Virus record (IMG/VR): IMGVR_UViG_3300009702_000365
Coordinates: 1 to 48,388 of that record
Source of the DNA: a virus
Length of the DNA: 48,388 bases
Strand: one strand, 5' to 3'
Under the pieces are notes generated by a model. It was not told the origin of the DNA. It saw nothing but the letters and a program-made list of their open reading frames with translations, and ran no database searches. Both the position numbers and the translations under genes were made by a program. Shown here piece by piece: positions 4,714 through 42,961 of the stretch (position 1 is its first letter; every line of letters starts with the position of its first letter).

Positions 4714-7700
4714 CTTTTAATTTCCATAAAAGTAGATCAATTTTATCGGCTAGCATTGGAATGCCTCTCTTATCCAGTTCATCTGCTACCTTTTCGAGCC
4801 GATCTACGACTGACGACCCTTTCTGCGATGGGTCTCTGAATAAATGTCGCTTGGCTTTGTCTTTACCAACGAACGTTGTATTATTACCCGGCATTGACTT
4901 CGGAACCTTTTTTTCTTCCACTGGAGGTGGTGGAACGTTCGTGGGCACAGAATCTTGCGGCATCTGAGGCAGTGGAGGTGCACCTTCAGCGCCAGGCGTC
5001 GGAGTGACCGGTTGTGGTTGCGGAGACATCACATCTGTTGGTGGCATTTCCGTTATAGGAATACCTGTCGAATCTTCTACTCTTTCCGTAGCTGGCAATC
5101 CATTATCAGGTGCTTCGGTATTATCACCCATTCCAAGTTCAGGTGCTTCGGTATTATCACCCATTCCAGCTTCGGGTGCTCTAATATCTCCTGGTTCGCC
5201 AGGCATGACCATATCCTCGTTACCATTGTCAGACTTGATATCATCAATGAAGTTTTCCAGGCTAGAAGCATCACTGTCTAGTTGGTCGGTAGATAGTACT
5301 GATGTTCCATTGTCTTGCTCAAGGATAATTTCAAATTCAGTCCTCAGAGCAGATGGCTTACCTGCCAACTCTGCTGGTGGCTCTTGCTCTAACTTCTTGC
5401 GCACGTTGTCTATAGCCCTTTTGGCACTAAGTTCTAGCAAGTCTAGACGAGCGTTGACTGGCATAATCAGCATATTGAGTTGCTTTTGCAGAGTCGGGAA
5501 TCGCCTCTCCAACTCGCTCAAGATTGATTCCCAGTTATTAGACTTCACAAGCCTCTTGAGCATACCTTCCGCACTACCCGCTTCACCGATAAAGTAGTCA
5601 AGGGTCTCGATAACCTTGATGGTACGTACTTTTGTACCAGTTCGGTTCATATCGTAGGCTTTACGCAATGCTTCTTCTTGAAGTTCTTCTGGTGTTGCCC
5701 CATATGGCAATGGAGTATGCTCACCTAAAACAACTTCCTCGCCTTTGTAGATAGCAGTACGGTCTTCCATTCGCTCCCAGTATGATGACTTGCGATAGGT
5801 ATTATTGTCCTTGCGTATACGAAATGCATCATGTCTGCGATTACGCTCTTTGTTAACCATCGCCCTGACTATTTTAGCCTCAGACCTCTGTTCATCTGTG
5901 AGTCTAGTATCATCTGGGTCAGCGGACACCTCTTCTGCGTTGAATGCATAATGCAAACCAATCATAATCTGACCACCATCACCCTTGCCGGAACTGGTAG
6001 AATAGTGACGACCGAAAATTTCATCTTCTTTAGGCGCGTCTAAGCCTCGGGCGGCACCCGGAATCTTTTCCCCACATGAAGCGTGCATCAGACAGGATAC
6101 AAAGTCCATCATCTTTGCAATGCTATAACCGTACTGGCTGAACATATTCCAACCGTGAGCATCGATCTTGGTATCTTGATCTGTAGCCATGACGCTATCA
6201 AGGTGATTGTCAATATACTTGGATATCCTATCCCAATCACCCGTCCGTTTATATTCTTGAATAGCACCCAGCAATGGGTTAGACGGTAGATTATTCTTAA
6301 CGACATCAAACATTTCGGTCAAGAATTGGAATTCATCTTTGTTTCTAGGGTACTGAGATGCCAAGGTCTTGCATGGATTCTTGCCTGGCAATCCACGGCA
6401 TATGGTCTTAACCTGTTGAGCCATACGCTTCCACGCATCGACATCCTCGCCACCGGGCAGCCCGTTAGCAAACATTCTAAATAGCGGCCTATTTAGCTCT
6501 GAGTCCTCTAGTTGTGGGTTATACTCGTAATAGGTTTCTAATGCAGTTGCCAGAGATCGGTCTAATATATCCTTATCAAGCGCCTGATAGTTGTCACCAT
6601 ATTTTTTGATAAGGTTTTCATAAACGGTTTCAGCACCGGTTCTATTTTGCATTACAGTTTTCCAGGCGACATCAGCAACTGAGGGGTCTTCTTCATTACC
6701 ACTAAACGGTGCTATACCACGCAATCCTGATAGATTGCGAAGTGCTTCAATAGAGGGTGTTCCCCACTTCTCTACCACAGCAGCCAATGCAGGTTGCTGG
6801 ACCCTCTTTGGTCTGCCTGTTGAGGTATCGACCGTTATCTGATTCCAGTTCTTTATTAGGTGATTCCTTCCTAAGTTTACCGTGTCACGGTCGTATAATA
6901 CCTGTCCTTGGCCCTTATTCCATACAGGTAATTTACGTAACATGGGGATAACCGGCATATGTTGTGAAGTACCAGGATCAGAGTCTAGACCATTGGAAGA
7001 GAAGTACATAGAGAAGTTAGGAACGTAGAACTCGTTGCGACCAACGTTATATCTATTTTTCTCATTCTCTGCCCAACTAATATAGTTTTGGCTAAACTGT
7101 GGCAACTTAGCATCACTGAATTTGTATGCAGGCATTGATTTGAAGTAATCAAATGCGTCTAATGTTAAATTACTTAACAGCAATTTAAGGTCAGTAGTAT
7201 TAAGAGTGGTCATTATATTACGTTTTGCACCACCGGTAATCTCTAGTCCAACTCTATACATTACCCTTCCATTGGAAGTCTGTACGCCCCAGTGCAATAG
7301 TGAATCCCGCCTACCGGGAGGGGTTGCCATACGGCTAATCTTAGTCATCAGCTTTGACTTTTCTTGTCCAGATGCAGACTGCATTGCAGTCATCATCTGT
7401 TTCATTACCATCTTTTTCTCTGGGCTCATGGGCATCTCAACAAGTCGTAATCCTTTGTCGAATTCCTCTATGATTCGTCTAAGTTGTTGATTGGCCTCAA
7501 ACTCTGCCTCACGATATTCATCGGGAGACATCTTAGAAACATGGCTGTTGATCGCAAGTTGTTTACTGATCTCGGCATGCAAAGTCCTAGTATTCATAGC
7601 GTAGCCTTGACGAACCTTGTTAGCAATAGCACGCATAGTGTAGCTATCGTAATTCAATTCACTAACTTCATTGTTTCCGAATTTCATACCGCCGGTTTGA

Positions 7701-8482
7701 CGCTGTCTATTGAGTTGCAGATCACCGTGCTCAATATACTTGTTTTTGTGATCCTGATAGAACCTTCGGCTGTCTATACCTAGCATATGAGGGTCGGCAG
7801 GTGTAGATTCATATCGTTTGTTTTCACTTTTAATGAATTTGATTAAGTCATCTTTCCTGATTGCACCACCCTTTTCTTCTGATAGTGAAGAAGCATGATA
7901 GTACGGATTCAGGGATATGTTATTTTTCTCAAGATCAGTAATGAAACCATCAACGTCGAAGCCAATAGATCGGCTTACCTGACCGATAGCATCATCTGCT
8001 ATTCTTAGAGCATTGACATTAAATTTTGGTTTGATGTGACGGCGGTATCTAAACCTCATGACTAATGTAGCTAGAGGCTCGCCAGAAACTTTGTCATCTA
8101 CTAAATCAGGTGCTTCATATCGGTAAAGGCCACCCTTGATAGGAAGGTTGGGTTGATGTAACTTGCCTGATTCATCGTGCTCCCTTACTTTCTGCTTCAT
8201 ATAGGGATGGAAATTCTCTTCGATATCACGTTTGATGGCAGCCGCTTTCGGTCCCACATCTGGATAGTCCCAAGAAAGATTCCAGACAGCAGTATTCAAA
8301 CTGCTATAGCCGGTATTAAAAGCCATTCCAGATTTACGCAACTTATCTAATCTCTGCTCGGCTTCGCGAAGGAAACCTTGTTTCAATTCGGCATTATCCA
8401 TAGGAACAGAGTTTCGCTTAGCCTGTTCAACCCTACGTGAAGCCTCTTTGATTAGATGTTGCTTAATATTGTGTATGTTCAT
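4694..8482 (-). CDS. 1262-aa putative structural protein
   Basis: I do not recognise a family. The N-terminus (HNIKQHLIKEA) resembles the FNLKQH motif found in other proteins here. The body (to about residue 1080) is a soluble mixed-composition protein without membrane segments. It is followed by an acidic, Pro-rich linker (about residues 1090-1200) with a duplicated 11-residue unit containing GMGDNTEAPE. The C-terminus carries an ADELDKRG...ADKIDLLLWKL helix resembling the N-terminus of the 648-aa protein at 22250-24196. Start: ATG with AAGAG about 8 nt upstream, 2 nt after the previous stop. It sits between portal and protease genes, so a head or internal-virion role is plausible but unproven. 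Confidence 0.8.
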   Translation of the reverse strand: MNIHNIKQHLIKEASRRVEQAKRNSVPMDNAELKQGFLREAEQRLDKLRKSGMAFNTGYSSLNTAVWNLSWDYPDVGPKAAAIKRDIEENFHPYMKQKVREHDESGKLHQPNLPIKGGLYRYEAPDLVDDKVSGEPLATLVMRFRYRRHIKPKFNVNALRIADDAIGQVSRSIGFDVDGFITDLEKNNISLNPYYHASSLSEEKGGAIRKDDLIKFIKSENKRYESTPADPHMLGIDSRRFYQDHKNKYIEHGDLQLNRQRQTGGMKFGNNEVSELNYDSYTMRAIANKVRQGYAMNTRTLHAEISKQLAINSHVSKMSPDEYREAEFEANQQLRRIIEEFDKGLRLVEMPMSPEKKMVMKQMMTAMQSASGQEKSKLMTKISRMATPPGRRDSLLHWGVQTSNGRVMYRVGLEITGGAKRNIMTTLNTTDLKLLLSNLTLDAFDYFKSMPAYKFSDAKLPQFSQNYISWAENEKNRYNVGRNEFYVPNFSMYFSSNGLDSDPGTSQHMPVIPMLRKLPVWNKGQGQVLYDRDTVNLGRNHLIKNWNQITVDTSTGRPKRVQQPALAAVVEKWGTPSIEALRNLSGLRGIAPFSGNEEDPSVADVAWKTVMQNRTGAETVYENLIKKYGDNYQALDKDILDRSLATALETYYEYNPQLEDSELNRPLFRMFANGLPGGEDVDAWKRMAQQVKTICRGLPGKNPCKTLASQYPRNKDEFQFLTEMFDVVKNNLPSNPLLGAIQEYKRTGDWDRISKYIDNHLDSVMATDQDTKIDAHGWNMFSQYGYSIAKMMDFVSCLMHASCGEKIPGAARGLDAPKEDEIFGRHYSTSSGKGDGGQIMIGLHYAFNAEEVSADPDDTRLTDEQRSEAKIVRAMVNKERNRRHDAFRIRKDNNTYRKSSYWERMEDRTAIYKGEEVVLGEHTPLPYGATPEELQEEALRKAYDMNRTGTKVRTIKVIETLDYFIGEAGSAEGMLKRLVKSNNWESILSELERRFPTLQKQLNMLIMPVNARLDLLELSAKRAIDNVRKKLEQEPPAELAGKPSALRTEFEIILEQDNGTSVLSTDQLDSDASSLENFIDDIKSDNGNEDMVMPGEPGDIRAPEAGMGDNTEAPELGMGDNTEAPDNGLPATERVEDSTGIPITEMPPTDVMSPQPQPVTPTPGAEGAPPLPQMPQDSVPTNVPPPPVEEKKVPKSMPGNNTTFVGKDKAKRHLFRDPSQKGSSVVDRLEKVADELDKRGIPMLADKIDLLLWKLKDATQDS
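5109..5168. repeat. 33-bp direct repeat, two copies
   Basis: A 27-bp identical core begins at 5109 and again at 5142 (33-bp period). It encodes a duplicated 11-residue acidic Pro/Gly linker unit in the 1262-aa protein. It looks like a recent in-frame duplication. Confidence 0.9.
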
Positions 8483-8484
8483 TT

Positions 8485-8892
8485 CTAACTCTTAATATGC
8501 TTTGGAATCTCGATTGCTTGCAAATCTTCCTTAGTCCATTGCCCTGCATTTTCGGGCATCCTAACTCCCCACATTTCAATAGCATAAGCTATGGCTGATC
8601 GTAACGTAGGGAAGTACTTTCCTGACGGCGAGTACGCCTTTTTCTTAGGGTCGCTAGGCATCTTCTTGTTGCCAGCGAAGAAGGACTTCCCTTCACGCTT
8701 CGACACAGCAGGACCGACGACCACATATCTCCAGCACGCATCCTCATAGTCTTTGCCAACCCATCGAAAGTATGATCCAGGCAAGATTTCCTCAAACTTT
8801 TTCTTAACCTCTTCGGATTTCTCACCGTAGTGCTCTTCCCATCTAATGCCTTTCTCTTTGATTCGTCTTCGCCCCGCTCTTACTTTTATCAT
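8485..8892 (-). CDS. Hypothetical basic protein, 135 aa
   Basis: The ATG overlaps the portal stop as ATGA, and GGAAGA in the portal tail serves as Shine-Dalgarno. The protein is rich in Lys/Arg at the N-terminus, has many aromatic residues (WRYVVVG, YFPTL, MWGV) and no membrane segment. Family not recognised. Tight coupling to the portal and to the 1262-aa gene (2-bp gap) suggests co-expression with head-assembly proteins. Confidence 0.8.
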   Translation of the reverse strand: MIKVRAGRRRIKEKGIRWEEHYGEKSEEVKKKFEEILPGSYFRWVGKDYEDACWRYVVVGPAVSKREGKSFFAGNKKMPSDPKKKAYSPSGKYFPTLRSAIAYAIEMWGVRMPENAGQWTKEDLQAIEIPKHIKS

Positions 8893-11800
8893 TTGCGTCT
8901 TCCTATAGTTCTTTTAGTGTCGGTCTTCAGCCCGGATTTGTAGAATCTTCCGAGATAGTCACCATAGTCATCTACTAGATATACCTCACCCTTCCTCATT
9001 GTATGAAGAATTGGCTTTACTGATTCTGACTTAGAAGCAGTCTTCTTACCAGCCGACTGCATTGCTTTGCCGATATACTCTCCTATAGTGTTGCGAACAG
9101 CTTGCTGCGCTTCCTCTATAACTTCGTCGTCAAACCGTAAGATAGTCCAACCACGTTGAGCCAATAAATAATCTCTTTGCTTATCGCTCTCTGCTTGCTC
9201 TGGGTTAGAGTGCCATACATCGCCGTCGCAATTGTGCGTTACAATATGACCAGCACAATAAGTGTGATCCTCAGTTTCAAAGTTAACGACAGCCCCGTCA
9301 TAATGCTCTGTAGTAACACTATTGACTGGAACGTAATAATAGCATTCATCTTCTCGATGTTTTGATTTAGTATATCCATCAAACTTAATTGTTAATTCCC
9401 ACAATCCTCGTGTGGTGCATTCACGATCAAGAATTATAGACAGTTTTGGTTTTCTGCTTTGTGATAGAGTGGCAAAATATCCCATACTAAATACCAAAAA
9501 TTGCATGTCCGTAAGCAGTTGTTCAGAAGAAGAGATCAACCTGTAATCGCCTGACTCCGAGCGAATACATCCATCTCCTTCCATAAAGGCTTGAATAAAT
9601 CCATTCTGAGTTTGTCGTGGTGCATGTAATATAAATGCGGGTAATTGCTTCTCTGGAGCATGTAGACCAAAATTATCTATAAACCACCTAGACAAACCAT
9701 TGCAACATACAATAACTTTAGCAATACTGTCTACTGGATAACTTGTAACCCGAGATTTCAGGTTAAATTTCGATTCTAATATATTTTGCGTTCTAGCTAT
9801 CAACTCTGTTTCTTTAATGTTAAACGAAAGTTCTATAGCAGATCGCTCGTAATTAACACATCCTTCCGCCGCATAAATACCAAGCAACCAACCCAAATCA
9901 TAATCAAGTGCTATAAATTGTGGCAACTTCGTAGCATTATGATCTTTTCCTTGATAATCCGACAGGTCGAGGATATATTGCTCTGTTCTCCAATGACATT
10001 TAGGTATCATTAAATAGTCGCCTTTTGCGATTTCTGAAGCATTGATGAATGTATTATTTTTATCAGGAACAGTGTATGACCTAGTTCTAGTTATTGTAGG
10101 CTCTTCCCGTAATACTCTACTTGACTTTGGCTTACACAACATTAACGGGTGATTCTTTGTCACCTTAATTGGACGTAATCCAAGGGGCTTAATAACAACC
10201 AGATCATCGTCATGTTTATTTCGGATAACATTTTTGATCTTAGTAAATTTTCCATTTTGATCTAACAAATCATCCTCATGTGTAACATCCTTTGCAAATT
10301 TAGAACCACATTTGGTCATAACTCGTTGTTCTGGATGTAAGCACTCCACGCCCAGCTTCAGGTGGGGTAGAGCAAAATCTAAAGCGTAAGGCTTTGCTCC
10401 CGTGGGATTTTCCACAGGGAACTGTGCTTTGATAAACTGCGGATTCAATCGATAGACTTCAGATAGATCAGTTAGTATTTCAGCCATTGCTTGCTCAATA
10501 CTGGTCAACTTAATCATAGGTATCTGTTCAGGTTGCAACTGATTTTGTTGATCTTTCTGCTTGCCTTTCTTCAATACCTTACCGCCTTCAGCCATAGGTG
10601 CCATACCGCCTGGTGCCATTCCACCAGCACCAGCACCACCCATCATTCCTGCATCAGCGGGACCACCCATACCGGGTGCCATTTCGCCGCCTGTACCCAT
10701 AGCACCGGGGTCACCACCACCTGGCGGCATTCCACCAGCGCCACCACCCATGCCACCCATGCCACCCATTGCATCCATTCCCGGCGGCTGTCCCATAGCA
10801 GCGCCAGCAGGACCGGACTGCATCTGCTCGTAACGCATTCTTTTGACTTCCTGATTGTAGTCCAGATCAAGTTCCTCAAGGAATGTCTGAGCCGATATCA
10901 ACTGCTTGTCATGCAACTGGTTAAGAAGTTGATACCATTGGGTCTTGTCTTTAAGATTCAGATCGTTCCACTTTAGGGTTGGATACAAGAAAATGGTCTC
11001 ACCAAGTTCTTCACTTTCTTCCTTATCAATAAACCCCTGCATTTCTGCAATGGGCTTGAAGATATTAGTCTCGCACCACTCAGCCAGAGAACTTCTCCAA
11101 GATTCGATACGACGAATTAGAGTTTCAACACCAACTTGAGCCGACTGATAGCCAGAATTGGAATGTATGTTTAGTTTGCCATTGCGCTCGGTTACAATAA
11201 ATCCATTAGGAACCGTGACACACCAAACTTTACCACGATATGGAAGCTTCGTGATTGTATCGTGTTTCTTGGATTCGAGTGTTATGGTCTCTTTGCCGAG
11301 ATCGTAATCTGAGAAAGATATCTCCCAAATAGTACGTCGCTTGCGGAATCTCGGGAAGTAGCCACACTTCAAAGCAATTTCCATGACATCATCACGAAGT
11401 TGCATACTCTTAGTGTAATAAGTATAGTACTTCTTCGGCCCGTGCTTATCTCGGGTTCTTAATGCCCCATCACCGTTGATGAGATATCCAAGCACCACTC
11501 TGAGGTGATAAGGGCTAAGGTCTTTTACCCACAGCGGAAGTTTCTTATTGTGGCTGAGATGTCCACATTCTTCCATTAAGATTCTGGCTAATTGAGTATT
11601 GTGAATGGCAAACCCATGTTTTGTTTTTGACACTTTATATTCTGCGTCTTTCCTAAGTTCACACAAATCACTCCACCCTTTGCCCTTATCAGTTTGTGAT
11701 ATTTGCACACTTTGAGGGTTGCCGTAAGTTGATCTATTTCTACGTGTTTCTTTCTGTATATGCCCTTCAGATACGTAATAGGCTATTATTTTCAACTGAT

Positions 11801-14800
11801 CTTCAAATGGTATTGATTTGTCACCTATTCTTAGTATACGATTTTTTTCAACAGAAGCACCCTGCTCTCCGTGCCATCCGACAGTTTTTCTAAACTTAGC
11901 TCTATCTCGCACTGTGTCTGCTGTGTCTACAATCCATTCGTCATGATCCCGCTTCTGATAGAGCATGCGATGGTTAGGAGTGCAAGCGAAATCTATCCTA
12001 TCAGTCTGGAAGTGCATCAGATCACCATCGTAGTCGTATTCATGAATGGCAGTTGGCTTCTGATACTCAAGCATGCCAGTTTCTATGTTGAATGTAGCTA
12101 TCTCATCATCTTCAGAAATCTGAGACAGAGATTTCAGTCCATCCTTTGTGAGCATTCGGTCATATTGAGGAATGCACATTTCACCATTAAGCAGAGATTG
12201 GTTAAGCATAAATCCGTCAAGGATTTCTTTGCCGATATTCTCCATTTCTTGCGTTACTTGAAGAATCTTTCCAGCAGCTCCATACCATTCATAATCAAAG
12301 TTATGATGGGTTACGATGGTTAGGTTCGGATCGTTTGCCGTTGCTGCAATCTGCTGCTGTATGTCTGCAATGTCTGCTGAAGTCGCAGGTCGTGCATCGC
12401 TGCCAATTTTGACCACTCTAACTGGAAGAATCAAACGCTCTGCTACAATCCAGTTGGCTGTCATAATCTTGGTTTTGTAAGCCAAAGTAGTAAACAGACG
12501 ACGTATCAAACTAGAACCGTAAGTACCATATGGTACTGGCATATGTTTGATGTGAGAGATAGTACGATTAGACATTGGGATAGGCTTGTTCTGAATAACA
12601 AGCTTCTTCACTGCGTTTGGAATACTATCATAAATATTCTTGGGTTGCTTATAGAATACGATGCGCTTCAATTCTTCATCTGGGACCATAACTATGGTGG
12701 GTTCCTCGGCAAGAATTGACTGTTGTACTTCCATCCAGTCCGGGTTGAGTATTTTGATTGATTTAATAGTTCCGCCTGGATGATTACATCTGTCACCCGT
12801 ACCTGGATCAATCCCACTACCACCACATACTGGGCAAGCAATGTCTGTGTGTACAAATACATCTCCAAGCATGAAGTATTCTGAAGACATCATCTTGAAG
12901 TTTTCATTTATATTAAGCTTGGATGGCGGTACCACTTTCTTGTGGTAGTATCGCCAAATCTTATGATCCTTGCAATCTAATTTGAAGCCGTTCATCGGGA
13001 ATCGGCTATTATGGCAGGATATCCTATTAGCTACATATGAATGAGAATTCTCTATCTCCAAGTCGTATACAATACCGGAGAATTTAGTTTGTTTTATTGA
13101 CCTTATTTTTCTGAAAATATAATTGCCATCTTTGAAATATGGAGTGTTACTAATTTTATCCTCATCAACGCAATTATCTGATATCTTATAAGTAAGTCTT
13201 GATAAAGAGCTACAAGCTCTGCGGGACAATCTGACATTGTAGCAAGTTTGGCGGTTAATTTTTGATATTTTAGTAGAAGTGAAAGAGTATTCTAAACCTA
13301 ATCTATCACAAATATTAGCTATTTGTTCAGATAGTGTTTTAGAAACTCCAACTCCTTGGAACCCATTAACCTTATTGAAACATCCATCACCGTCCAAAAA
13401 CCCTGCCAACAGATGCAGTAAATCTTCATCCCCAAACTTCATTATTATGGGTGCAAATCGTTTACTGCCATCCTTAGACATACCTGGACATAAACCAATG
13501 AGATCATCGGCTATTCCTTTGCCATAAGCTGCAATTCTCTGTATTCCCTCTTCTTCTACTTTGCGAACTGTGACTTTGTTGTTACCATACAATTTATGGA
13601 TAATCGTAGTTACTTTTTCTACCAGCCCATTTTCCTCTTGGTCAAGAGTTAAATAAACACCCTTGTAGTAAGAACTATAATGACCTTTTATATCGGTATG
13701 TTTATATGGTATGCCACATCCTTCTGCGGCATACAACCCTAATAACCATGCAAAATCAGTATCTATGGTCTTATTATTCCTAGAATCACTATAATCTGCC
13801 GGGGTTAATAAGTAATCACCTTCTTTCAAATGTTGGGCCTGGACAAACTGAATTTCTCCTTCTCGCTTAGTTAATAACTCGTGTCCTTTAGTTACTCCTA
13901 AAGATTGCCCAAGAGAAACGCCTGCAATACTTATTCTAAGTATTTCTTCTTCTGTTTGTCTTGCAAATGTTCGAACAACCTTATTAGTATTGCCGTCATG
14001 CGATCTTATTAAATCTCCTGGCTGTATAGATGATATAGATTTCTGAGCACCATTCGCCATAAGGATTTGAGTTTCAGGAGTGAAACAATAGAAGTCAATA
14101 GCAGCAGCAACTTTCGGTTCATTCTCGTAAAAAAAACGGCAATTGGATGTTACAAATCCACTTGCTACAAATGAACGCTCTGGATCAATTTGCAAGTCGT
14201 AACCCCGACCTGTGTATCTAAATTGTTTGATGCTCTCAATGGGTTGAGCCAAGTATGTAACACCATCTTCCTCGTAGAAAAAACGAAGTTCTCTCGTATT
14301 TCTAGGTTCAAAATCATCAGGAATTTTCCCACTTCGCATATATGGCTTTAGCAATAGAATATCAGATTGAGGAATAAATACACGGTAGCACCATTTGCTG
14401 TCAGTTTCATAATGATCACCGTACAACGGATAGCGACCCAGCGAGGCTCGAATACCTACAGACAGAAGAAGCCAATAGATTTGATCTGCCATATCGCAAG
14501 AATAATTATTGGCGATTAATTTGCCTTCACGTTTAGAAAAAGAACCATCGCCATCAAAGTAGCCGCCTAATACATGGAGACGTGATTCTTTATCAAGATT
14601 GAAGAGACCTTCGGTGAAGCACTTTTCAGTTAGTTTACCAGTGATATATTTTGCGAAAAATGAGTGACATTCTTTGTTACAAACTTGTATACGTTGTGAC
14701 AATTTACTGTTATGATGCTCTCTAGAAATTACATTGCCCCAGACAGACATATGCGACTCTAGGTCATCCCTAAATTTCTCGTATTTGTTTATGGTAAAAT

Positions 14801-15539
14801 GAACCCTATTATCACATAAAGAGACACATCCGTCTGCCGATGCAAGTCCTAGCAACCATGCATCTGAATATTTAAGTTCTGATTCCCAGACTTTTGGAAT
14901 AGGAGCAAGCAAATAATCAGAAGCCTGTATGTCTTGTGACTCTTTCCTACCAATAAGATTTTCTGGAAAATCTATTTTTGGTTTATCACCACCAACGGGA
15001 ATGCCTTTGGATCGACGATAAATGGCATCTTTTTCCAGCTTTCTTTTATGGCGATAAGATTGGCCATTAATGACATATAGTGGATGGTTCTCTGAAACAG
15101 TTAAATTTCGCCAATATCCATAAACACTGAATTCAAGAGCAAGTATATCCTTATTCTTCTGTACAGAATATCGAGGGAACTCTCTAAAATTACCCTGACC
15201 ACTCAAAACTTGTTCAGAGTTTTTGACCTCATAAATGAGTCCATCTGTCAATCTATCTTGGATAATATCTTCTTCCTCAAACGACAATTTATCAATGTCT
15301 TTGAAAGTATAATTTGACGTAAGTGCTTGACCTATAAGCACTTGCCACTGGTAAATTTCTCTCCTCTTACTGGCAATCTGCCAGTTTTGTGGAGTATGTA
15401 ATGGGCTGAACCACATAGGTTGGCCCATCATATTGCTGACTCCAGTCATTTGGGCATCTTTCTGGAAGCCTGTAAATCGAGCATCAGCAGATGCAGCTAT
15501 TGCACTGCTGGCATATTTGAAAGTGCCACCCGCACTCAT
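8889..15539 (-). CDS. Portal protein precursor with four inteins and C-terminal VSR/DUF559-like nuclease domain
   Basis: 2216-aa precursor; removing the four inteins leaves 744 aa in five exteins of 65, 18, 277, 271 and 113 aa. The joined exteins read like a large-phage portal: SPLHTPQNWQ, EIYQW-CRFFYENEPKVAAA, AIDFY-SRFPMNGF, then VPYGTYGSSLIRRLF and the long helical LLNGEM-SGYQSAQVG segment. A DnaJ-like zinc knuckle (CPVCGGSG...CNH) lies in extein 3. A Gly/Met/Pro-rich linker (10590-10830) leads to a restriction-fold domain: LTSIEQ helix, YALDFALPHLKLGVE-CDGDVWH, DKQRDYLLAQRGW and RFDDEVI. Portals form the dodecameric DNA gate at the capsid vertex; the nuclease fusion is unusual. Start: ATG overlapping the stop of the 43-aa gene. 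Confidence 0.85.
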   Translation of the reverse strand: MSAGGTFKYASSAIAASADARFTGFQKDAQMTGVSNMMGQPMWFSPLHTPQNWQIASKRREIYQWQVLIGQALTSNYTFKDIDKLSFEEEDIIQDRLTDGLIYEVKNSEQVLSGQGNFREFPRYSVQKNKDILALEFSVYGYWRNLTVSENHPLYVINGQSYRHKRKLEKDAIYRRSKGIPVGGDKPKIDFPENLIGRKESQDIQASDYLLAPIPKVWESELKYSDAWLLGLASADGCVSLCDNRVHFTINKYEKFRDDLESHMSVWGNVISREHHNSKLSQRIQVCNKECHSFFAKYITGKLTEKCFTEGLFNLDKESRLHVLGGYFDGDGSFSKREGKLIANNYSCDMADQIYWLLLSVGIRASLGRYPLYGDHYETDSKWCYRVFIPQSDILLLKPYMRSGKIPDDFEPRNTRELRFFYEEDGVTYLAQPIESIKQFRYTGRGYDLQIDPERSFVASGFVTSNCRFFYENEPKVAAAIDFYCFTPETQILMANGAQKSISSIQPGDLIRSHDGNTNKVVRTFARQTEEEILRISIAGVSLGQSLGVTKGHELLTKREGEIQFVQAQHLKEGDYLLTPADYSDSRNNKTIDTDFAWLLGLYAAEGCGIPYKHTDIKGHYSSYYKGVYLTLDQEENGLVEKVTTIIHKLYGNNKVTVRKVEEEGIQRIAAYGKGIADDLIGLCPGMSKDGSKRFAPIIMKFGDEDLLHLLAGFLDGDGCFNKVNGFQGVGVSKTLSEQIANICDRLGLEYSFTSTKISKINRQTCYNVRLSRRACSSLSRLTYKISDNCVDEDKISNTPYFKDGNYIFRKIRSIKQTKFSGIVYDLEIENSHSYVANRISCHNSRFPMNGFKLDCKDHKIWRYYHKKVVPPSKLNINENFKMMSSEYFMLGDVFVHTDIACPVCGGSGIDPGTGDRCNHPGGTIKSIKILNPDWMEVQQSILAEEPTIVMVPDEELKRIVFYKQPKNIYDSIPNAVKKLVIQNKPIPMSNRTISHIKHMPVPYGTYGSSLIRRLFTTLAYKTKIMTANWIVAERLILPVRVVKIGSDARPATSADIADIQQQIAATANDPNLTIVTHHNFDYEWYGAAGKILQVTQEMENIGKEILDGFMLNQSLLNGEMCIPQYDRMLTKDGLKSLSQISEDDEIATFNIETGMLEYQKPTAIHEYDYDGDLMHFQTDRIDFACTPNHRMLYQKRDHDEWIVDTADTVRDRAKFRKTVGWHGEQGASVEKNRILRIGDKSIPFEDQLKIIAYYVSEGHIQKETRRNRSTYGNPQSVQISQTDKGKGWSDLCELRKDAEYKVSKTKHGFAIHNTQLARILMEECGHLSHNKKLPLWVKDLSPYHLRVVLGYLINGDGALRTRDKHGPKKYYTYYTKSMQLRDDVMEIALKCGYFPRFRKRRTIWEISFSDYDLGKETITLESKKHDTITKLPYRGKVWCVTVPNGFIVTERNGKLNIHSNSGYQSAQVGVETLIRRIESWRSSLAEWCETNIFKPIAEMQGFIDKEESEELGETIFLYPTLKWNDLNLKDKTQWYQLLNQLHDKQLISAQTFLEELDLDYNQEVKRMRYEQMQSGPAGAAMGQPPGMDAMGGMGGMGGGAGGMPPGGGDPGAMGTGGEMAPGMGGPADAGMMGGAGAGGMAPGGMAPMAEGGKVLKKGKQKDQQNQLQPEQIPMIKLTSIEQAMAEILTDLSEVYRLNPQFIKAQFPVENPTGAKPYALDFALPHLKLGVECLHPEQRVMTKCGSKFAKDVTHEDDLLDQNGKFTKIKNVIRNKHDDDLVVIKPLGLRPIKVTKNHPLMLCKPKSSRVLREEPTITRTRSYTVPDKNNTFINASEIAKGDYLMIPKCHWRTEQYILDLSDYQGKDHNATKLPQFIALDYDLGWLLGIYAAEGCVNYERSAIELSFNIKETELIARTQNILESKFNLKSRVTSYPVDSIAKVIVCCNGLSRWFIDNFGLHAPEKQLPAFILHAPRQTQNGFIQAFMEGDGCIRSESGDYRLISSSEQLLTDMQFLVFSMGYFATLSQSRKPKLSIILDRECTTRGLWELTIKFDGYTKSKHREDECYYYVPVNSVTTEHYDGAVVNFETEDHTYCAGHIVTHNCDGDVWHSNPEQAESDKQRDYLLAQRGWTILRFDDEVIEEAQQAVRNTIGEYIGKAMQSAGKKTASKSESVKPILHTMRKGEVYLVDDYGDYLGRFYKSGLKTDTKRTIGRRK
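9231..10343 (-). other. Intein 4 of portal (371 aa), inside nuclease active site
   Basis: Starts with Cys (CLHPEQRVM), ends VTHN with +1 Cys (CDGDVWH). Block B is VTKNHPLML. Homing motifs are LLGIYAAEG and IQAFMEGDG. The insertion divides the GVE-CDG motif of the portal's C-terminal VSR/DUF559-like domain, between the acidic residues expected to bind metal. Confidence 0.93.
11157..12176 (-). other. Intein 3 of portal (340 aa)
   Basis: Starts with Cys (CIPQYDRML), ends IHSN with +1 Ser (SGYQSAQ). Block B is ACTPNHRMLY. The C-terminal block has the form VWCVTVPNGFIVTERNGK, different from the YDLEV...HSYVANG form of inteins 2, 4 and the one at 16302-17453. The penultimate residue is Ser, not His. 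Weaker LAGLIDADG motifs are IIAYYVSEG and VLGYLINGDG. It looks like a separate intein lineage. Confidence 0.9.
13008..14087 (-). other. Intein 2 of portal (360 aa)
   Basis: Starts with Cys (CFTPETQIL), ends SCHN, with +1 Ser (SRFPMN). Block A is typical (PGDLIRSHDG) and block F reads YDLEIENSHSYVAN. Homing endonuclease motifs are LLGLYAAEG and LAGFLDGDG. It is separated from intein 1 by an extein of only 18 residues. Canonical class 1 residues are present, so autocatalytic splicing is expected. Confidence 0.93.
14142..15344 (-). other. Intein 1 of portal (401 aa, starts with Gln)
   Basis: Inserted between W65 of extein 1 and the Cys of CRFFYENEP. The intein begins with Gln (codon CAA), not Cys or Ser, and ends Thr-Ser-Asn before +1 Cys, so it also lacks the usual penultimate His. 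Block B is present as SENHPLYV (about residues 84-91). Two LAGLIDADG motifs are visible: LLGLASADG (164-172) and LGGYFDGDG (259-267), each keeping its acidic residue. The boundaries restore an uninterrupted portal reading. No frameshift or alternative Cys start was found at the junction. Confidence 0.85.
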
Positions 15540-15667
15540 TCTATCTTATCTAGTTCTTGTATTCTTTTTTGATGTGCCAGTTTAGGAGTCAATGCATTCG
15601 CATATGGGTCGCCCATAATAATGGGTTGCTTCCAATTAGGATCGTCAGGTAATATGAGATTTCCCAT
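15536..15667 (-). CDS. Small 43-aa protein upstream of portal
   Basis: ATG at 15667 has AAAGGA about 6 nt upstream. It encodes 43 aa beginning MGNLILPDDPNW and ending with a charged helix, stopping in a TGA that overlaps the portal ATG (ATGA). The start signal and coupling make it a convincing gene despite its size. Function unknown. Confidence 0.75.
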   Translation of the reverse strand: MGNLILPDDPNWKQPIIMGDPYANALTPKLAHQKRIQELDKIE

Positions 15668-16181: not shown

Positions 16182-19100
16182 TTAATTTTTTTTTTTAGAT
16201 GCAGTCTTAAAGTCCTGCATATTAAAGGATTTCTTATCCTTTTTCTTGTCCTTCTTATCCTTTTTGCGATCTCTATCCTGATCTTTAACGTGTTGTACAC
16301 AATTATGTACAGAACAGAGATTTGCAACATAAGATTCATCACCAGCAACTTCTAAATTATAAACTTTGCCTGAATAAATCTGCTTGGTTACTTCTAAAAT
16401 TCTACCATAAGTGCATGCCGCCATCGCAAATCTTCTTCCTCTTTTATATATATTCACAAACTTTTTCTCGGGGAAATAGGAAGATAGTTTATAAGAATTA
16501 GAAGCATTTATGTGAAGAGACCATTGGTCAAAACATTTATTACGATCAAGTGGACCACCAGTAACTTGCCTAAATTGCATTGTACTTGTAATTCCACATC
16601 GGTCTGTAAGTAACAACAACTGCTGTACTAATTGTTGAGATGCAGAAGCCATCGATATTTTATTTAACCCCTCATGATTATAAACACATCCATCACCGCG
16701 AATATAACCAGCAAGAAAAGCCTTCTGAATAGATGGTGCTGCGCTCATAAGTGATTTAGAAAGCTTCTTAGTTCGCGCTCCTTTCCCTACGTGTTTACAA
16801 CACAATTCAGCAAATGATCTACTGTATATTGTGACAATTTCCACTAATGAGCTTGAAGTACCTTGCCTGGATTTTACTGGACATCCTAAAACGTTTTGTC
16901 CGAAATCATACAGTTCATCAACAAGCATTTTATCTTTTTTTGCATTCAAAGAAAATACCGCTCGGAATCCTTTTTCTGTACGATTGGCATATTTTGTAGT
17001 TGCTCCATTGTGACCACATTGCCATTCTGAAACTATGCTTTCTGTCCCCTCACAGTGTCCCTCAGATGCATATATTCCTAACACAAATGCAGTTCTTTCA
17101 TCTATATTTTCATCCGTCATTTCCAAATTAAGGGTAGGTGTGTGAACGCAATCACCTATTCGCAACTCTCTTGCTGGAATAAATTCAGATTTCTCAGCAT
17201 ATTCAGTAGGTATGCCCGATTTGCCATCTTTTAGCTTTTTCAAAGAATAGATAGGATGTTCAGATGTAACCCACAATTTATATGGTAATCCACTAACCTT
17301 AATTCCTATAGATTCTTCCTCTACATGATGCTCTAGACATCGCATTACTTTGCGAGGATGCCCCTTATGAGTAATAACCAAATCTCCCACCTCAACCTTT
17401 TCTATAGGTTTGAAACTACCATCGTCCATAGTTACCGTAGTTCCCGGTAAACAACATCGCTCAAATTTGGCGTCACCAGCTTCATTTTTGCCACCGGTAC
17501 TCTTGTTACAAACTGCCCAAGGGTTATACTTAAAATGCTCACCTTTGTAGGTAACACCCTTTTCTGACTTGGCTTCTTTGCCCACAAATAGTGAGTCATA
17601 TGCTTGGGCAAGTAGAGTTTGCTGTTCTCGTACAGTAAGTTGTTGCCACCTGGAGAGATTGCTACGTAAATCTGCATTAACCCTGCGATCTTGTGCCAAT
17701 GCTGTTACAATGGCATTCTGCTCTTCTGGCGGAAAAAACGGAGTTTGAGTAATAAACTCTTCTCTAGTAGCTCCTGATGCATGTATTAAATCTACGATAT
17801 TATCGCTTGGCATCTGTTCTATGTCTTCTATTTTCCTGTCCAGGTCATTTAGGGCATTATCGAATTCCGATTGAGCATTTTTGCCTTTGAGTCGCCGCTG
17901 TATTCGCTCACGATCTGTTTCACCCTTTTCGCCTCTCATTCTGCGAAGTATTCTTTGCCGATCATCATCTCTGACCTTCTGCTCATGTGGTTCTATAGGA
18001 GTTCCATCTTCTGAGACGGGAATGCCTGCACCTTGGGCCTTTTTATGCTGTTTTAGATTAAATGACTTGGTCACTTCACCACAAGACTTGCACTTTTGCT
18101 TGATCGGGTCTCTATTAAAATCCTTAATCTGAACCTTGACAACTTTATCATTTTCTACAGATGCCTTCTTGTCAGTCCAGTTTTCTTTTCTGTTCTTGTC
18201 ATTAACGTAGGCGCTATATGACTTACCCTTGTCTAAGTCTTCGTGACATCCACATTCACCCTTGTTTTTCCCGCAACCACAAGGACACTTCTCTGTCTTA
18301 GCAGTCTTGAAGTCCTTCATATTAAATGACTTCTTAGGATTGTTTTCAGCACCCTGCCCAGGTGCTAGTTCGTGACCAGACGCTTCTTCTCTGCGATTGC
18401 GCTCTTTCTGAGTTTGTTCTACGTTGTTTTGGTCTTGATCGTGGCACCACTCAAATGGCGGCGAGGTATCAGTTGTTGGCGAATAACCTCTCTTCTCGCC
18501 TTCCTTCTCTCGCATTGCTTGCATGCGAGCTTCCATGTTACCAAAAATCTCTGCTGGACGAGGCTTGCGGGTTTCGCCTGGCTTCAGGCGCATCTTATTT
18601 TCTTCGGGGACGTTGCGGTTGATCTCGAAACGCTTGTTAATATATCCACCAACTATGTCGCCATCGGGGTTGACATATTCACGAGAGAACTTATCCATAG
18701 CATTAGCGCGCCATAAAGCTTCACCACAAACAGTCTTGTTATCATCAATTACGATGCCATCAAGACAGTGATGGCGGCAGATATATTCAGAAACTACATC
18801 TCCAGTACCTGGCAGACCGCCACCTTTGCCGCGAAGTTTAGGGCAAATGCGTTTCTCGCTGGGACCGTACAACATATATTGCTGCCCGAACTGATCGGCA
18901 GCAGTCTTGATCATTGCTTGCTTATTATTTAAGACATGATCGCTCAAATTGAATTTGATTATACCTTTTGGATTATGTTCACTCATAACTGGTTGCTCCA
19001 CAGTGCTAGTTCCTAAAGCAGCAGGGGCAACGAAATTCTCATAAACGATACCTAAGAATTGTCTTGCCTTATCCTGTTCATTATGCCCTAAAACCTGAAT

Positions 19101-19802
19101 CGCCTCTAGAGCGTCATTGGCATCATTTTGGAGCGCCCGGCTTACCGCCCCTAAAATCTCCTGCTTTGCCTTCTCTGAAATCGTATCTCCCTCTCCTCTG
19201 TCTCCTTGGTAGGCCACAAGAGAATATAGATACTGTTCGATAAACTTTCCCTTCTCCACTTCGTCCACAGGATCAGGTGCTATTACTTCAGACTGAGCAG
19301 TTCGAGATGCCATCGGCATCGCCATCTGAGCCTGATCTCTTTGAACTTGTTTCTGGTCCTGATTGGCATCAATCAGAGATTTCAGCCGATCAAAGTGGGT
19401 TTTAAGTTCCTCTGGCTGTACGACTCGGTCTGTTGCCTTCTGAAACTGCTCGACCGTTGGACCGAGTTGCTCATCATCAATTGTTTGTCTCAACACCGTC
19501 AAATCATCTGCTTCTAGCAGCGCTCTAATTTCTGGCTGCTGACTGATAACTTGAGCATATGGCTTATATTCTGGCAATGCCAACAACCTTTGTATCTCAT
19601 CTATAAGAGGAAGGTTCTGGGCTTGTTGCAAAATTGCCTGTTGATCTGCATCCCTCGCAGTATCAACCACATCTTCTGTTTGGATATCTACATTCTCATC
19701 AGGATCGTACATATCCTCTAGAGTGCTAAATCCTCTTTGAACAGCAGGGCTAGCATCCGTACTGGGTACTGCTTCCGAATACTTTTTGAGATTAAACGCC
19801 AC
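16182..19802 (-). CDS. Cys-rich structural-type protein with intein
   Basis: 1206-aa precursor, 822 aa after splicing. I favour a GTG start at 19802: GGAAAG lies about 4 nt upstream, the gene then follows the preceding stop directly, and the product begins with an FNLKKY motif. An ATG at 19835 in the same frame, without Shine-Dalgarno, is the alternative. Features: an N-terminal helical region; a Cys-containing domain (ICP...ICRHHC...VCGEALW); a segment MDKFSREY...GGYINKRFE; a CPCGCGKNKGECGC cluster; and KCKSCGE. The motif SFN[LM][KQ]...K.A occurs three times (18300-18329, 18036-18065, 16200-16229). The C-terminal NPWAVC...FERC-CVQHVK region carries the intein; a Lys/Asp-rich tail ends in A11. 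Probably a virion protein; function unknown. Confidence 0.8.
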   Translation of the reverse strand: MAFNLKKYSEAVPSTDASPAVQRGFSTLEDMYDPDENVDIQTEDVVDTARDADQQAILQQAQNLPLIDEIQRLLALPEYKPYAQVISQQPEIRALLEADDLTVLRQTIDDEQLGPTVEQFQKATDRVVQPEELKTHFDRLKSLIDANQDQKQVQRDQAQMAMPMASRTAQSEVIAPDPVDEVEKGKFIEQYLYSLVAYQGDRGEGDTISEKAKQEILGAVSRALQNDANDALEAIQVLGHNEQDKARQFLGIVYENFVAPAALGTSTVEQPVMSEHNPKGIIKFNLSDHVLNNKQAMIKTAADQFGQQYMLYGPSEKRICPKLRGKGGGLPGTGDVVSEYICRHHCLDGIVIDDNKTVCGEALWRANAMDKFSREYVNPDGDIVGGYINKRFEINRNVPEENKMRLKPGETRKPRPAEIFGNMEARMQAMREKEGEKRGYSPTTDTSPPFEWCHDQDQNNVEQTQKERNRREEASGHELAPGQGAENNPKKSFNMKDFKTAKTEKCPCGCGKNKGECGCHEDLDKGKSYSAYVNDKNRKENWTDKKASVENDKVVKVQIKDFNRDPIKQKCKSCGEVTKSFNLKQHKKAQGAGIPVSEDGTPIEPHEQKVRDDDRQRILRRMRGEKGETDRERIQRRLKGKNAQSEFDNALNDLDRKIEDIEQMPSDNIVDLIHASGATREEFITQTPFFPPEEQNAIVTALAQDRRVNADLRSNLSRWQQLTVREQQTLLAQAYDSLFVGKEAKSEKGVTYKGEHFKYNPWAVCNKSTGGKNEAGDAKFERCCLPGTTVTMDDGSFKPIEKVEVGDLVITHKGHPRKVMRCLEHHVEEESIGIKVSGLPYKLWVTSEHPIYSLKKLKDGKSGIPTEYAEKSEFIPARELRIGDCVHTPTLNLEMTDENIDERTAFVLGIYASEGHCEGTESIVSEWQCGHNGATTKYANRTEKGFRAVFSLNAKKDKMLVDELYDFGQNVLGCPVKSRQGTSSSLVEIVTIYSRSFAELCCKHVGKGARTKKLSKSLMSAAPSIQKAFLAGYIRGDGCVYNHEGLNKISMASASQQLVQQLLLLTDRCGITSTMQFRQVTGGPLDRNKCFDQWSLHINASNSYKLSSYFPEKKFVNIYKRGRRFAMAACTYGRILEVTKQIYSGKVYNLEVAGDESYVANLCSVHNCVQHVKDQDRDRKKDKKDKKKDKKSFNMQDFKTASKKKN
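16186..16196 (-). other. A11 homopolymer at gene end, possible slippage site
   Basis: Eleven consecutive A residues on the coding strand encode the final Lys residues of the upstream gene, just before TAA. Adding one A reads through as KKKKLT and continues in frame into the ATG of the 164-aa gene. This is read directly from the sequence; use as a slippage signal is inferred. Confidence 0.5.
16302..17453 (-). other. Intein in Cys-rich structural protein (384 aa)
   Basis: Starts at the second Cys of FERC-CLPGTTV and ends SVHN before +1 Cys (CVQHVK). Block A PIEKVEVGDLV, block B VTSEHPIYSL, homing motifs VLGIYASEG and LAGYIRGDG, block F VYNLEVAGDESYVAN. All canonical class 1 residues are present. 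Splicing leaves adjacent Cys-Cys in the extein, within a Cys-containing C-terminal region. Confidence 0.93.
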
Positions 19803-19803
19803 A

Positions 19804-20808
19804 TTACTTTCCGTTGTAGTAGTCTGCCAGCCCATCAAAGAGTTTATCTACAGACGCTCTGTGGATATTCTTACGCTCTACATCTGTTCCTAAAACGTCA
19901 TCTAACAAATGGCTTTCTGCCTTCTTAGCAGGCTCTGACTTGTCCCACTCTTTACGAGCGGCCTGTTTCTTCATGGTGACATCTTCTTCAGACTGTTTGA
20001 TCGATTCCCCTACAGTCTTGTCAGGAAGTTGATCGAAACCATCATTACCCCAAATATCCATTGAGTTTTCCGGCATTTTCTGGTTACCTACATGCTCAAC
20101 AGTGGAAACATTTGCTACAGAAGCGGTCTTACCCTGGATAACATCCTGGTGCGACATTTTATTCTGTAGTTCTTCCCAGTACTGTTGCTTCTGATCGGAA
20201 GCCAACTTTTCCTTAGCTGCTTGGCTTTCCTTAATATGTTCATCACCACGGGGCTGAGTTGCCAATTCTGCTAATCTGCCACTATCCCAAATACTATTGG
20301 GGTTCATTGACTGCCCCATGTAACCACCAGTCTTATTTTCATTCTGACCATACTCTGGATTATATCCCGCAGGAATAACAGCGTGGTCATTTGCGTTGTC
20401 CAAGAGATTTGATGAGAGAGAATTTCTGGTATCGCCTATCGGTGGTGCTGACTCGGTAGCAATCTGATTACAGAACTTCTGAGCTGCCCTTTCCAGTTTC
20501 TTCCCTCGCAATCCATCGTTCATGGCATCCTTAGCGAAGGCGACAACGTGCTCTCGGGCAATACCCACATGAGCGCGGTCGGCAGCAAATTCTAGCTCAC
20601 CAATAATGTTTCTCAGTTCTTCGTTCTGCACACCTCTAAAGTCTGAATCAGTTACAGACGAAAAGATATCCATTCCACTGACTGGTGCTTCCTCTTGGCG
20701 AGTGTTATTTTTAGCGTGAGCCGCCTTGGTGAAAACAACATCCTTCGTGATGCCGTTCAACAGACTACTCATTACATCGTTATTGTAACTATGTCCTGAT
20801 AGTTTCAT
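19804..20808 (-). CDS. Hypothetical 334-aa structural-type protein
   Basis: ATG with AAGGGT 8 nt upstream. Polar, largely helical, no membrane segment. It contains an Ala-rich helical stretch (AADRAHVGIAREHVVAFAKDA), a disordered Asn/Gln-rich middle and a charged C-terminus with several KKA.../K.A patches. Family not recognised. It lies between the GTG-started intein gene (adjacent to its stop) and the 178-aa gene (10-bp gap) in the structural operon. Confidence 0.8.
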   Translation of the reverse strand: MKLSGHSYNNDVMSSLLNGITKDVVFTKAAHAKNNTRQEEAPVSGMDIFSSVTDSDFRGVQNEELRNIIGELEFAADRAHVGIAREHVVAFAKDAMNDGLRGKKLERAAQKFCNQIATESAPPIGDTRNSLSSNLLDNANDHAVIPAGYNPEYGQNENKTGGYMGQSMNPNSIWDSGRLAELATQPRGDEHIKESQAAKEKLASDQKQQYWEELQNKMSHQDVIQGKTASVANVSTVEHVGNQKMPENSMDIWGNDGFDQLPDKTVGESIKQSEEDVTMKKQAARKEWDKSEPAKKAESHLLDDVLGTDVERKNIHRASVDKLFDGLADYYNGK

Positions 20809-25530: not shown

Positions 25531-26272
25531 TTGCAGGCCCCTGTAATCTACCCGAAGCCAGGACATTCTGTAGATACTCACCTAGTAACCCCATCTGTTG
25601 CAATTGGTATTCACCAATAGCATTGATACAATCATCTATAGATGCCCTAAACTCTTGAGTCCCTTCTTTGGGATCAGCCATAATTCTAGATTCAACTTCA
25701 GATTCTCTAATCTCATCCATCTTCTCAACAGCCGCTTCGGCGTATTGTTTTAATTCGTATAACTCACCATGCAACCTTCTGACATCCACATCGGCAAAAT
25801 CAGAATCGGCAGTCCACTGGGATGCTTTGGTGATCTTCTGTAACCAACTCGACGCCGTTTTGGCCTCTGCGGTAGTCGGAGCACCGTCAGTCAGAGCACG
25901 ATGAATGCCTTCGTAATCCACGACATTCTTATACTTGGATTCCTTGTCGAAGGTGTTGCTCTCAGTCAGCAAAACAATATTTCTAACAATGTCCTTGCCT
26001 TTTTTGGTGATGGTGACAGATCGGCTACCCGTATCAAGCACGGAAGCCACGTTACGCATGCCTTCTAAGTATCCTTTAGTAATCAGCCCTGAGACAATCA
26101 TCGGGTCCAAGTCTTCAGGAACCAACGGATTACCCCAGTTATCTCTGTCACTTTCCCAGATCGCGTAAATAGCCTGCGCCTCTTTGTTGGAGATAGGTGA
26201 TCGCCGAACATTTACAGATTTTAACGGAAAAAAGTTTATGAAATCCAAAATAGACTGGCCTTCTTTAATCAT
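25493..26272 (-). CDS. Protein with winged-helix-like N-terminus and NWL-type motif
   Basis: 259 aa from ATG at 26272, chosen because GGAGG lies 6 nt upstream within the preceding gene's end (8-bp overlap). Residues ~25-105 read like a winged helix: LDPMIVSGLITKGYLEG and a wing VTITKKGKDIVRNIVLL. Then comes an SSWLQKITKASQ motif similar to NWLTKISQ in two neighbours, and a coiled-coil-like C-terminal half. Function unknown; DNA binding is only suggested. Confidence 0.75.
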   Translation of the reverse strand: MIKEGQSILDFINFFPLKSVNVRRSPISNKEAQAIYAIWESDRDNWGNPLVPEDLDPMIVSGLITKGYLEGMRNVASVLDTGSRSVTITKKGKDIVRNIVLLTESNTFDKESKYKNVVDYEGIHRALTDGAPTTAEAKTASSWLQKITKASQWTADSDFADVDVRRLHGELYELKQYAEAAVEKMDEIRESEVESRIMADPKEGTQEFRASIDDCINAIGEYQLQQMGLLGEYLQNVLASGRLQGPANGSDAVIPQQNA

Positions 26273-27059
26273 CTCCACCTCCCAAGTATTGCTTAAGTTC
26301 CGGCACAAGAAGCATGCGCCCCATGTTGTACTTCTGGAGCATTTCTATGCCTTGTTCTGCATCAATCTTTAATATTCGTACTATCTCCTTGATGATCCTT
26401 TCTGCGGATACTGAATTACACAGATTATCTGTACCCGCCTTCATTGCTGATCGCATATCGTCATCGATATGAAAATCGTATGTCAAAGCAAAACGAATAG
26501 CCCTAAGAATCGCCAGGGGGTTGTATTTAACGAGGAGATCAGATGGAATAAGGGAAGATATAATTTTTCGCTCCAGGTCTTCGACCGCTAGTCCAGTTGG
26601 ATCATAAACTTTTTCATCATCCAGAGCATAGATCATTGAATTGATCGTAAAATCCCTGCCATATATATTGTTCATCAAAGGCACGTCTTCGATCCCTTGG
26701 TTGTGCATCCATTGACGAACTTCTTGGTTATGCATATATTGGTTAACGCTATGACCTTGAAACTCTATACGAATTTCACCAGCCTCGCTTTTGAAATTGA
26801 CTGCCGCCGCCCCCGATCTTTTGTAAACTTCAGGTGAGGTGTTGAGAACTTCAGAAGCAAAGAGATTACCTAATTGAATTGCCTGATCGTGGAATGCAGA
26901 TGCCACATCTATATCACTTGATTTCCAGACTGTACCATAATACAACTCTCGGCAAAACCCTCCAACTATGAACAGTGATTCGATGCCATACAGTTTGGTA
27001 AAGTATGTCAACTTCGCAACTACTTCATATATTAGAATCTCTTTGCTTGCTGGGTCCAT
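26265..27059 (-). CDS. Short class II tRNA nucleotidyltransferase/poly(A) polymerase-like protein
   Basis: 264 aa, shorter than typical bacterial enzymes (about 400 aa or more). Family motifs: VGGFCRELYYG...SSDIDVA (nucleotidyl-transfer Gly-Gly and DxD aspartates), GRDFTINSM, DPTGLAVEDLERK, and LRAIRFAL. The usual EDxxR nucleotide-template motif (EDPLRILRA) reads YNPLAILRA here, so three specificity residues are changed. The C-terminal body and tail domains are missing. It may add nucleotides to RNA with altered specificity or be a binding/regulatory derivative. It sits between unrelated structural-operon genes with a 2-bp gap upstream. Confidence 0.85.
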   Translation of the reverse strand: MDPASKEILIYEVVAKLTYFTKLYGIESLFIVGGFCRELYYGTVWKSSDIDVASAFHDQAIQLGNLFASEVLNTSPEVYKRSGAAAVNFKSEAGEIRIEFQGHSVNQYMHNQEVRQWMHNQGIEDVPLMNNIYGRDFTINSMIYALDDEKVYDPTGLAVEDLERKIISSLIPSDLLVKYNPLAILRAIRFALTYDFHIDDDMRSAMKAGTDNLCNSVSAERIIKEIVRILKIDAEQGIEMLQKYNMGRMLLVPELKQYLGGGDD

Positions 27060-42916: not shown

Positions 42917-42961
42917 TGCAATTTCCTTATAAGCCATAGACCATCGACATAGACTTAGACT

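Follow-up and report, generated by a model that had tools for sequence, protein, structure and literature searches.

The viral record IMGVR_UViG_3300009702_000365 (positions 1 to 48,388; this whole stretch of 48,388 nucleotides is referred to here as the window) contains a portal gene that has very probably been invaded separately by four mobile inteins, each predicted to remove itself after translation, the first of them by what appears to be a class 2-like route. The gene is a single open reading frame (ORF) at positions 8889 to 15539 of the minus strand and encodes 2216 amino acids (aa), in which five exteins alternate with four inserts. The relatives used for comparison, labeled L0xx, are viral metagenome contigs, and insertion sites are numbered according to the portal of one of them, L008. 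In the order of translation, the parts of the frame are as follows.

15345 to 15539, minus strand: extein 1, aa 1 to 65, ending in KRREIYQW; rejoins exactly as in L006 and L008.
14142 to 15344, minus strand: intein 1, aa 66 to 466 (401 aa), site 108; starts with Gln and ends in TSN|C; class 2-like, LAGLIDADG type (LAGLIDADG_3, 4.9e-11), with a fold match of its AlphaFold2 (AF2) model; member of a clade of 13 alleles.
14088 to 14141, minus strand: extein 2, the 18 residues CRFFYENEPKVAAAIDFY between inteins 1 and 2.
13008 to 14087, minus strand: intein 2, aa 485 to 844 (360 aa), site 126; starts with Cys and ends in HN|S; homing endonuclease present (Intein_splicing, 5.9e-16 for the stretch).
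12177 to 13007, minus strand: extein 3, aa 845 to 1121, the portal core, which carries the matches to PHROG portal families and the phage G portal given below.
11157 to 12176, minus strand: intein 3, aa 1122 to 1461 (340 aa), site 401; starts with Cys and ends in SN|S; alleles 79% (L006) and 75% (L005) identical; empty in L007 and L008.
10344 to 11156, minus strand: extein 4, aa 1462 to 1732, the C-terminal part of the portal, a Gly/Met-rich linker, and the start of a nuclease-like domain.
9231 to 10343, minus strand: intein 4, aa 1733 to 2103 (371 aa), site 661; starts with Cys and ends in HN|C (TIGR01445 intein_Nterm at aa 1733 to 1800); 84% identical allele in L006.
8889 to 9230, minus strand: extein 5, aa 2104 to 2216 and the stop codon, the remainder of the nuclease-like C-terminal domain (MTES_1575/DUF559; PDB 3r3p).

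A sequence-only reading of this DNA had proposed interruptions of 401, 360, 340, and 371 aa, with an 18-residue extein separating the first two. All of the sizes and their order were confirmed, as was the short extein, and the junctions are reproduced by empty alleles. L008 contains no insert at any of the four sites and is 64% identical to the window portal over 720 residues; L006 (89% identity across the N-terminal half) has inteins at sites 401 and 661 but none at sites 108 and 126. Inteins are present only at sites 108 and 401 in L005 (empty at 126 and 661), at sites 108, 126, 368, and 661 in L007 (empty at 401), and at sites 108, 126, and 405 in L009 (empty at 661), and L010 is also empty at site 661. 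Once joined, the window exteins align in each of these comparisons like uninterrupted relatives, and absence from orthologues at the exact junctions, by which inteins are recognized, holds for all four inserts. Because the empty alleles reproduce the exact junctions, both chance and ordinary domains are ruled out as sources of the pattern. The comparison with intein-free relatives that had been proposed as a check found the segments absent, diverged, or lacking the endonuclease at the same sites, and none of them proved to be an ordinary portal domain.

An ORF that is open throughout, on a contig that is a metagenomic assembly, could in principle consist of ordinary portal domains or be an assembly chimera. 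Such an origin is extremely improbable, as intein-free relatives align straight across each junction, the same inserts recur at identical codons on independent contigs from other samples, and the inserts match intein families (Intein_splicing, LAGLIDADG_3, and TIGR01445/TIGR01443) but not portal families. Both the domain and the chimera explanations were rejected on the basis of the empty alleles.

The identification of the gene as a portal gene, also made from the letters of the sequence, is borne out by the exteins, which match PHROG portal families (6.7e-22), the profile match by which tailed-phage portals are recognized. L008, the relative without inteins, scores above the cutoff for Pfam Portal_Mu (2.1e-7), and among isolates Bacillus phage G comes closest, with an annotated portal, gp14, that aligns to extein 3 at 31% identity. 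Relatives are found on contigs of up to 494 kb, which makes it most likely that the 48-kb window is one piece of a jumbo-phage genome. The five rejoined exteins do amount to 744 aa, as had been calculated, but this product is probably not the full portal since relatives start about 43 codons earlier. The corresponding segment of the window lies just upstream.

15536 to 15667, minus strand: N-terminal portal segment of 43 codons (MGNLILPDDP...), in another frame; continuous with the portal frame in L006 and L007.

Stop and start codons overlap as ATGA at positions 15536 to 15539, where this segment meets the portal ORF; L006 and L007 read straight through this point. The frame break might reflect a sequencing error, damage to the gene, or a natural split bridged by coupled translation. 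At the other end of the protein, a DUF559/MTES_1575 domain follows the Gly/Met-rich linker in every relative, including the intein-free ones, and resembles the EDxHD homing-endonuclease-type protein 3r3p (PDB; 4.9e-7). Intein 4, at site 661, splits E|CDG, a catalytic-looking motif of this DUF559/EDxHD-like nuclease domain (window positions 9231 to 10400); motifs of this type are a frequent location for intein inserts.

All four inserts contain a Hedgehog/intein (HINT) splicing domain with blocks A, B, F, and G and a C-terminal Asn, recognized in intein 1 by way of its fold. LAGLIDADG_3 matched five stretches of the portal ORF, and the DOD motifs lie inside the inteins. The residues that follow inteins 1 to 4 (position +1) are Cys, Ser, Ser, and Cys. 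Inteins 2, 3, and 4 have the Cys at position 1 and the terminal Asn that, with Ser also allowed at position 1, characterize class 1, and with Ser or Cys at +1 they should therefore splice by the standard class 1 route, consisting of an N-S acyl shift, transesterification to the +1 residue, Asn cyclization, and acyl rearrangement. The earlier assignment of the inserts as inteins is supported, but it overlooked that intein 1 starts with Gln and is without the standard position 1 nucleophile, the residue that nearly all inteins use to start excision.

Intein 1 is one of 13 related alleles at site 108. Position 1 is Gln in the window and D, S, K, L, L, M, E, L, V, L, Q, and M in the other 12; it is never Cys, and a Cys, Ser, or Thr is missing there in 12 of the 13 alleles, the exception being Ser in L009. 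By comparison, His B:10, Asp F:4 (in GYD), Ser G:6, Asn G:7, and Cys+1 are invariant, Cys+1 is the only invariant Cys of the clade, and a Trp precedes the insert in every allele. The window allele also has Leu at B:12 and Thr at G:5, a position that varies among T, A, I, V, and S, so that Thr is found in some alleles only. Pfam Intein_splicing gave no match to intein 1 searched alone, although LAGLIDADG_3 did, and a search of PDB sequences with an intein 1 profile recovered PI-PkoII only; the AF2 model (predicted local distance difference test [pLDDT] score of 80) matched the full-length inteins TliVMA and PI-SceI, with E values down to 1.5e-15. Searches of bacterial and archaeal genomes for the block F motif of intein 1 and for a portal relative of the family returned no match, and in viral contigs the exact motif was found in portal site-108 inteins only and in no other genes.

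A tree of the splicing parts, built with the trait columns removed, united the 13 alleles in one clade (support of 99), which adjoins site-108 inteins that have Ser1 or Cys1 and end in His-Gln (support of 78, a weak placement). This sister clade comprises the site-108 inteins of L021, L023, L025, and L034, all of which start with Ser or Cys and end not in Asn but in His-Gln, a terminal Gln being rare for inteins. Grouping of the 13 alleles with KlbA inteins was less likely, although the approximately unbiased test did not reject it (p = 0.19).

What distinguishes the intein classes is the way in which the first bond is broken. Class 1 was rejected for intein 1 on account of the Gln at position 1, which is not Cys, Ser, or Thr, and class 3 was rejected on account of the absence of the WCT motif (Trp B:12, Cys F:4, and Thr G:5); with these two classes excluded, class 2 is the remaining known route. 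The class 2 signature (Ala1, Ser G:6, Cys+1, Asp F:4, and His B:10) is known only from KlbA genes (PMC4031507, PMC3196547). Intein 1 shares the nonnucleophilic position 1, Ser G:6, Asp F:4, His B:10, and Cys+1, but it does not have Ala1, and its host gene is not KlbA. Judged by these residues, intein 1 appears to work like a class 2 intein, though one that may not belong to the KlbA class itself. The Mja KlbA intein (PDB 2jmz and 2jnq) likewise has no Cys or Ser at position 1 and has the same Ser G:6, Asn G:7, Cys+1, Asp F:4, and His B:10; the site-108 inteins differ from it in being located in a phage portal, in having any residue instead of Ala at position 1, and in containing a LAGLIDADG domain. 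Checked against 2jmz, the end of Mja KlbA reads GFAVS(N), compared with GFVTSN|C in window intein 1; the final Asn and the +1 Cys of Mja KlbA fall outside the 2jmz alignment and are residues that we take to be there. By such a route, intein 1 would most likely omit the first step of the class 1 reaction, with Cys467 (+1) directly attacking the Trp65-Gln66 bond and Asn466 then cyclizing.

Intein 1 might instead have lost the ability to ligate, undergoing C-terminal cleavage only or no reaction at all, in which case inteins 2 to 4 would splice normally and the portal would be left in two pieces or with an N-terminal tail. A Gln at position 1, and almost any residue there in relatives, would agree with such a loss, as would the experimental finding that class 1 inteins are blocked by changes of position 1 to residues other than Ser, Thr, or Cys and the existence of an inactive phage intein pseudogene (PMC3196547). 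This seems unlikely, however, given that 13 alleles with identities down to about 40% remain in frame with His B:10, Asp F:4, Ser G:6, Asn G:7, and Cys+1. A cleavage-only element would not need Cys+1, yet this residue follows the insert in 13 of 13 occupied alleles, whereas empty alleles have C, S, A, or V. In addition, L050 keeps its splicing residues though its first DOD motif is degraded, and the joined region REIYQW|CRFFY ranks with the best-conserved stretches of the portal. Less probable still is a reaction started by another internal nucleophile rather than Cys+1, whether class 3-like or by a new route. Class 3 inteins also lack a position 1 nucleophile and are linked with phages (PMC4031507, PMC5050341), and the window allele has Thr at G:5 as they do; but F:4 is Asp and not Cys in 13 of 13 alleles, B:12 is not Trp, G:5 is variable, and the clade has no invariant Cys other than Cys+1.

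Several observations weigh against a portal gene with four self-removing inteins of which the first is class 2-like. The contigs are metagenomic assemblies, and the window copy, with its frame broken upstream, could hold a sequencing error or be damaged. Block G is poor in the intein 1 model (pLDDT of <50 from residue 408), which makes the active-site geometry unreadable. Position 1 is not Ala as in KlbA in any of the 13 alleles, and Ser1 in L009 and a Cys at position 2 in L007 mean that those two starts could be read otherwise.

With four inteins and a class 2-like intein 1 as the preferred explanation, translation would yield a 2216-aa precursor whose exteins join into a working portal subunit after four excisions. 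The 18-residue extein serves as the C-extein of intein 1 and the N-extein of intein 2, so that one of these inteins would have to finish in the presence of the other. Site 661 lies in the C-terminal nuclease-like domain and all other sites in conserved portal sequence, from which it is reasonable to infer that splicing is completed before the dodecameric ring assembles. The LAGLIDADG endonuclease in each intein probably cuts intein-free portal alleles of coinfecting phages, leading to copying of the insert into them, and the patchwork of occupied and empty sites among relatives would be explained if sites were invaded repeatedly and lost either the endonuclease or the whole insert.

Signs of selection and sharing were found in the alleles themselves. 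At sites 108, 126, 368, 401, and 661, a Cys, Ser, or Thr stands at +1 in 45 of 45 cases with an intein but in only 55 of 107 without one, and empty sites also show Ala, Val, Gly, Pro, and Leu at this position; the difference gives p = 8e-11 if cases are independent, but the alleles are related and this value is only a guide. The ratio of nonsynonymous to synonymous polymorphism (pN/pS) in the inteins is 0.20 to 0.41, indicating purifying selection. Between the window and L006, intein 4 differs at 33 of 115 fourfold sites (29%), whereas the exteins differ at 139 of 248 (56%; p = 1e-6). Fourfold site counts were used for this comparison, and the four-row estimates of synonymous divergence (dS), which are near saturation, were not used for dating. 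By these counts, intein 4 was shared between the window phage and L006 more recently than the surrounding gene, which matches the prediction of homing. Within intein 1 (window positions 14142 to 15344), the second half is about 90% identical and the first half 42 to 53% identical among the window, L007, and L009.

The portal is an intein hot spot across the jumbo-phage clade. Mapping of inserts against L008 in 31 nonredundant portals identified 12 insertion sites (108, 114, 126, 186, 361, 364, 368, 400, 401, 403, 405, and 661) and 0 to 5 inteins per gene, and 53 complete inteins were extracted. Five portals are intein-free or nearly so over the sequence covered, with none in L008, L018, L019, and L024. 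The portals of L038 to L047 were found with an intein 1 query and are biased toward an occupied site 108, so these counts are not frequencies. L025 (ORF 5166 to 12413) carries five inteins in a single 2416-aa portal frame, in which exteins between neighboring inteins are as short as CRFFYQ (6 residues) and SGYQ (4 residues), and L034 contains four complete inteins and the first residues of a fifth at the contig end. At site 126 the window intein is full-sized, whereas the versions in L007, L009, L017, and L043 are 142 to 152 aa long and have no endonuclease. In L035, a 187-kb contig, the portal frame ends after 254 codons (about positions 7668 to 8728) and similarity continues past that point, which could reflect a frameshift or an intron.

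Four inteins in one gene had been called exceptional, which is true in general; however, the clade maximum is higher (five, in L025), and four inteins are known in the ribonucleotide reductase of Trichodesmium erythraeum (Liu et al. 2003, as cited in PMC4649490). That protein is a cellular metabolic enzyme whose gene also contains group II introns, while the protein here is a structural protein of a phage. Other hot-spot genes include Prp8, with 7 sites, and mycobacteriophage TerL, with at least 5 (PMC6805012), as well as haloarchaeal MCM, with 4 (PMC10643990). They share with the portal many independent sites in conserved parts of one gene and inteins that group by site; the portal differs in having twelve sites, up to five of them occupied at once, with neighbors 4 to 18 residues apart. 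Portals of mycobacteriophage cluster C1 are also intein bearing, with six inteins in all listed for that portal group, and only classes 1 and 3 are reported from those phages (PMC5050341); the portal described here belongs to the family of the Bacillus phage G portal.

Portal inteins, genes with four inteins, multisite hot-spot genes, and class 2 inteins are each already known singly. Their combination, the number and spacing of the sites, and above all a clade outside KlbA that shows the class 2 signature with an unconstrained residue 1 were not found in the open-licence papers searched. We lean, by a modest degree, toward regarding the site-108 inteins as a second, phage-borne class 2 lineage that arose apart from KlbA, in which Cys+1 would attack directly and residue 1 would be free to vary; the surrounding hot spot would be the densest so far described for a single gene (12 sites, five occupied at once, and exteins down to 4 residues). 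If so, the 13 natural alleles, in which residue 1 is free while Ser G:6 and Cys+1 are fixed, would mean that the class 2 route evolved repeatedly or extends beyond KlbA, and the site-108 inteins would be ready-made inteins that place no demand on the first residue, a property of use in protein ligation. With inteins separated by only a few codons, the portal is also a natural setting in which to study intein competition, a question addressed until now in haloarchaeal MCM (PMC10643990), and it may reveal how four or five splicing events per subunit are tolerated by a virion protein that forms a ring.

Two further inteins were found outside the portal gene, bringing the number in the 48-kb window to at least six.

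16302 to 17453, minus strand: intein of 384 aa (TIGR01443) in the upstream ORF at 16182 to 19838, near the C terminus of that ORF.
39040 to 40401, minus strand: intein of 454 aa in the gene for a B12-dependent ribonucleotide reductase (NrdJ).

The window also contains genes encoding a poly(A) polymerase-like protein (26265 to 27059), a TIGR03790 family protein (32982 to 34829), a peptide deformylase (42167 to 42937), and a sulfotransferase-like protein (47477 to 48325).

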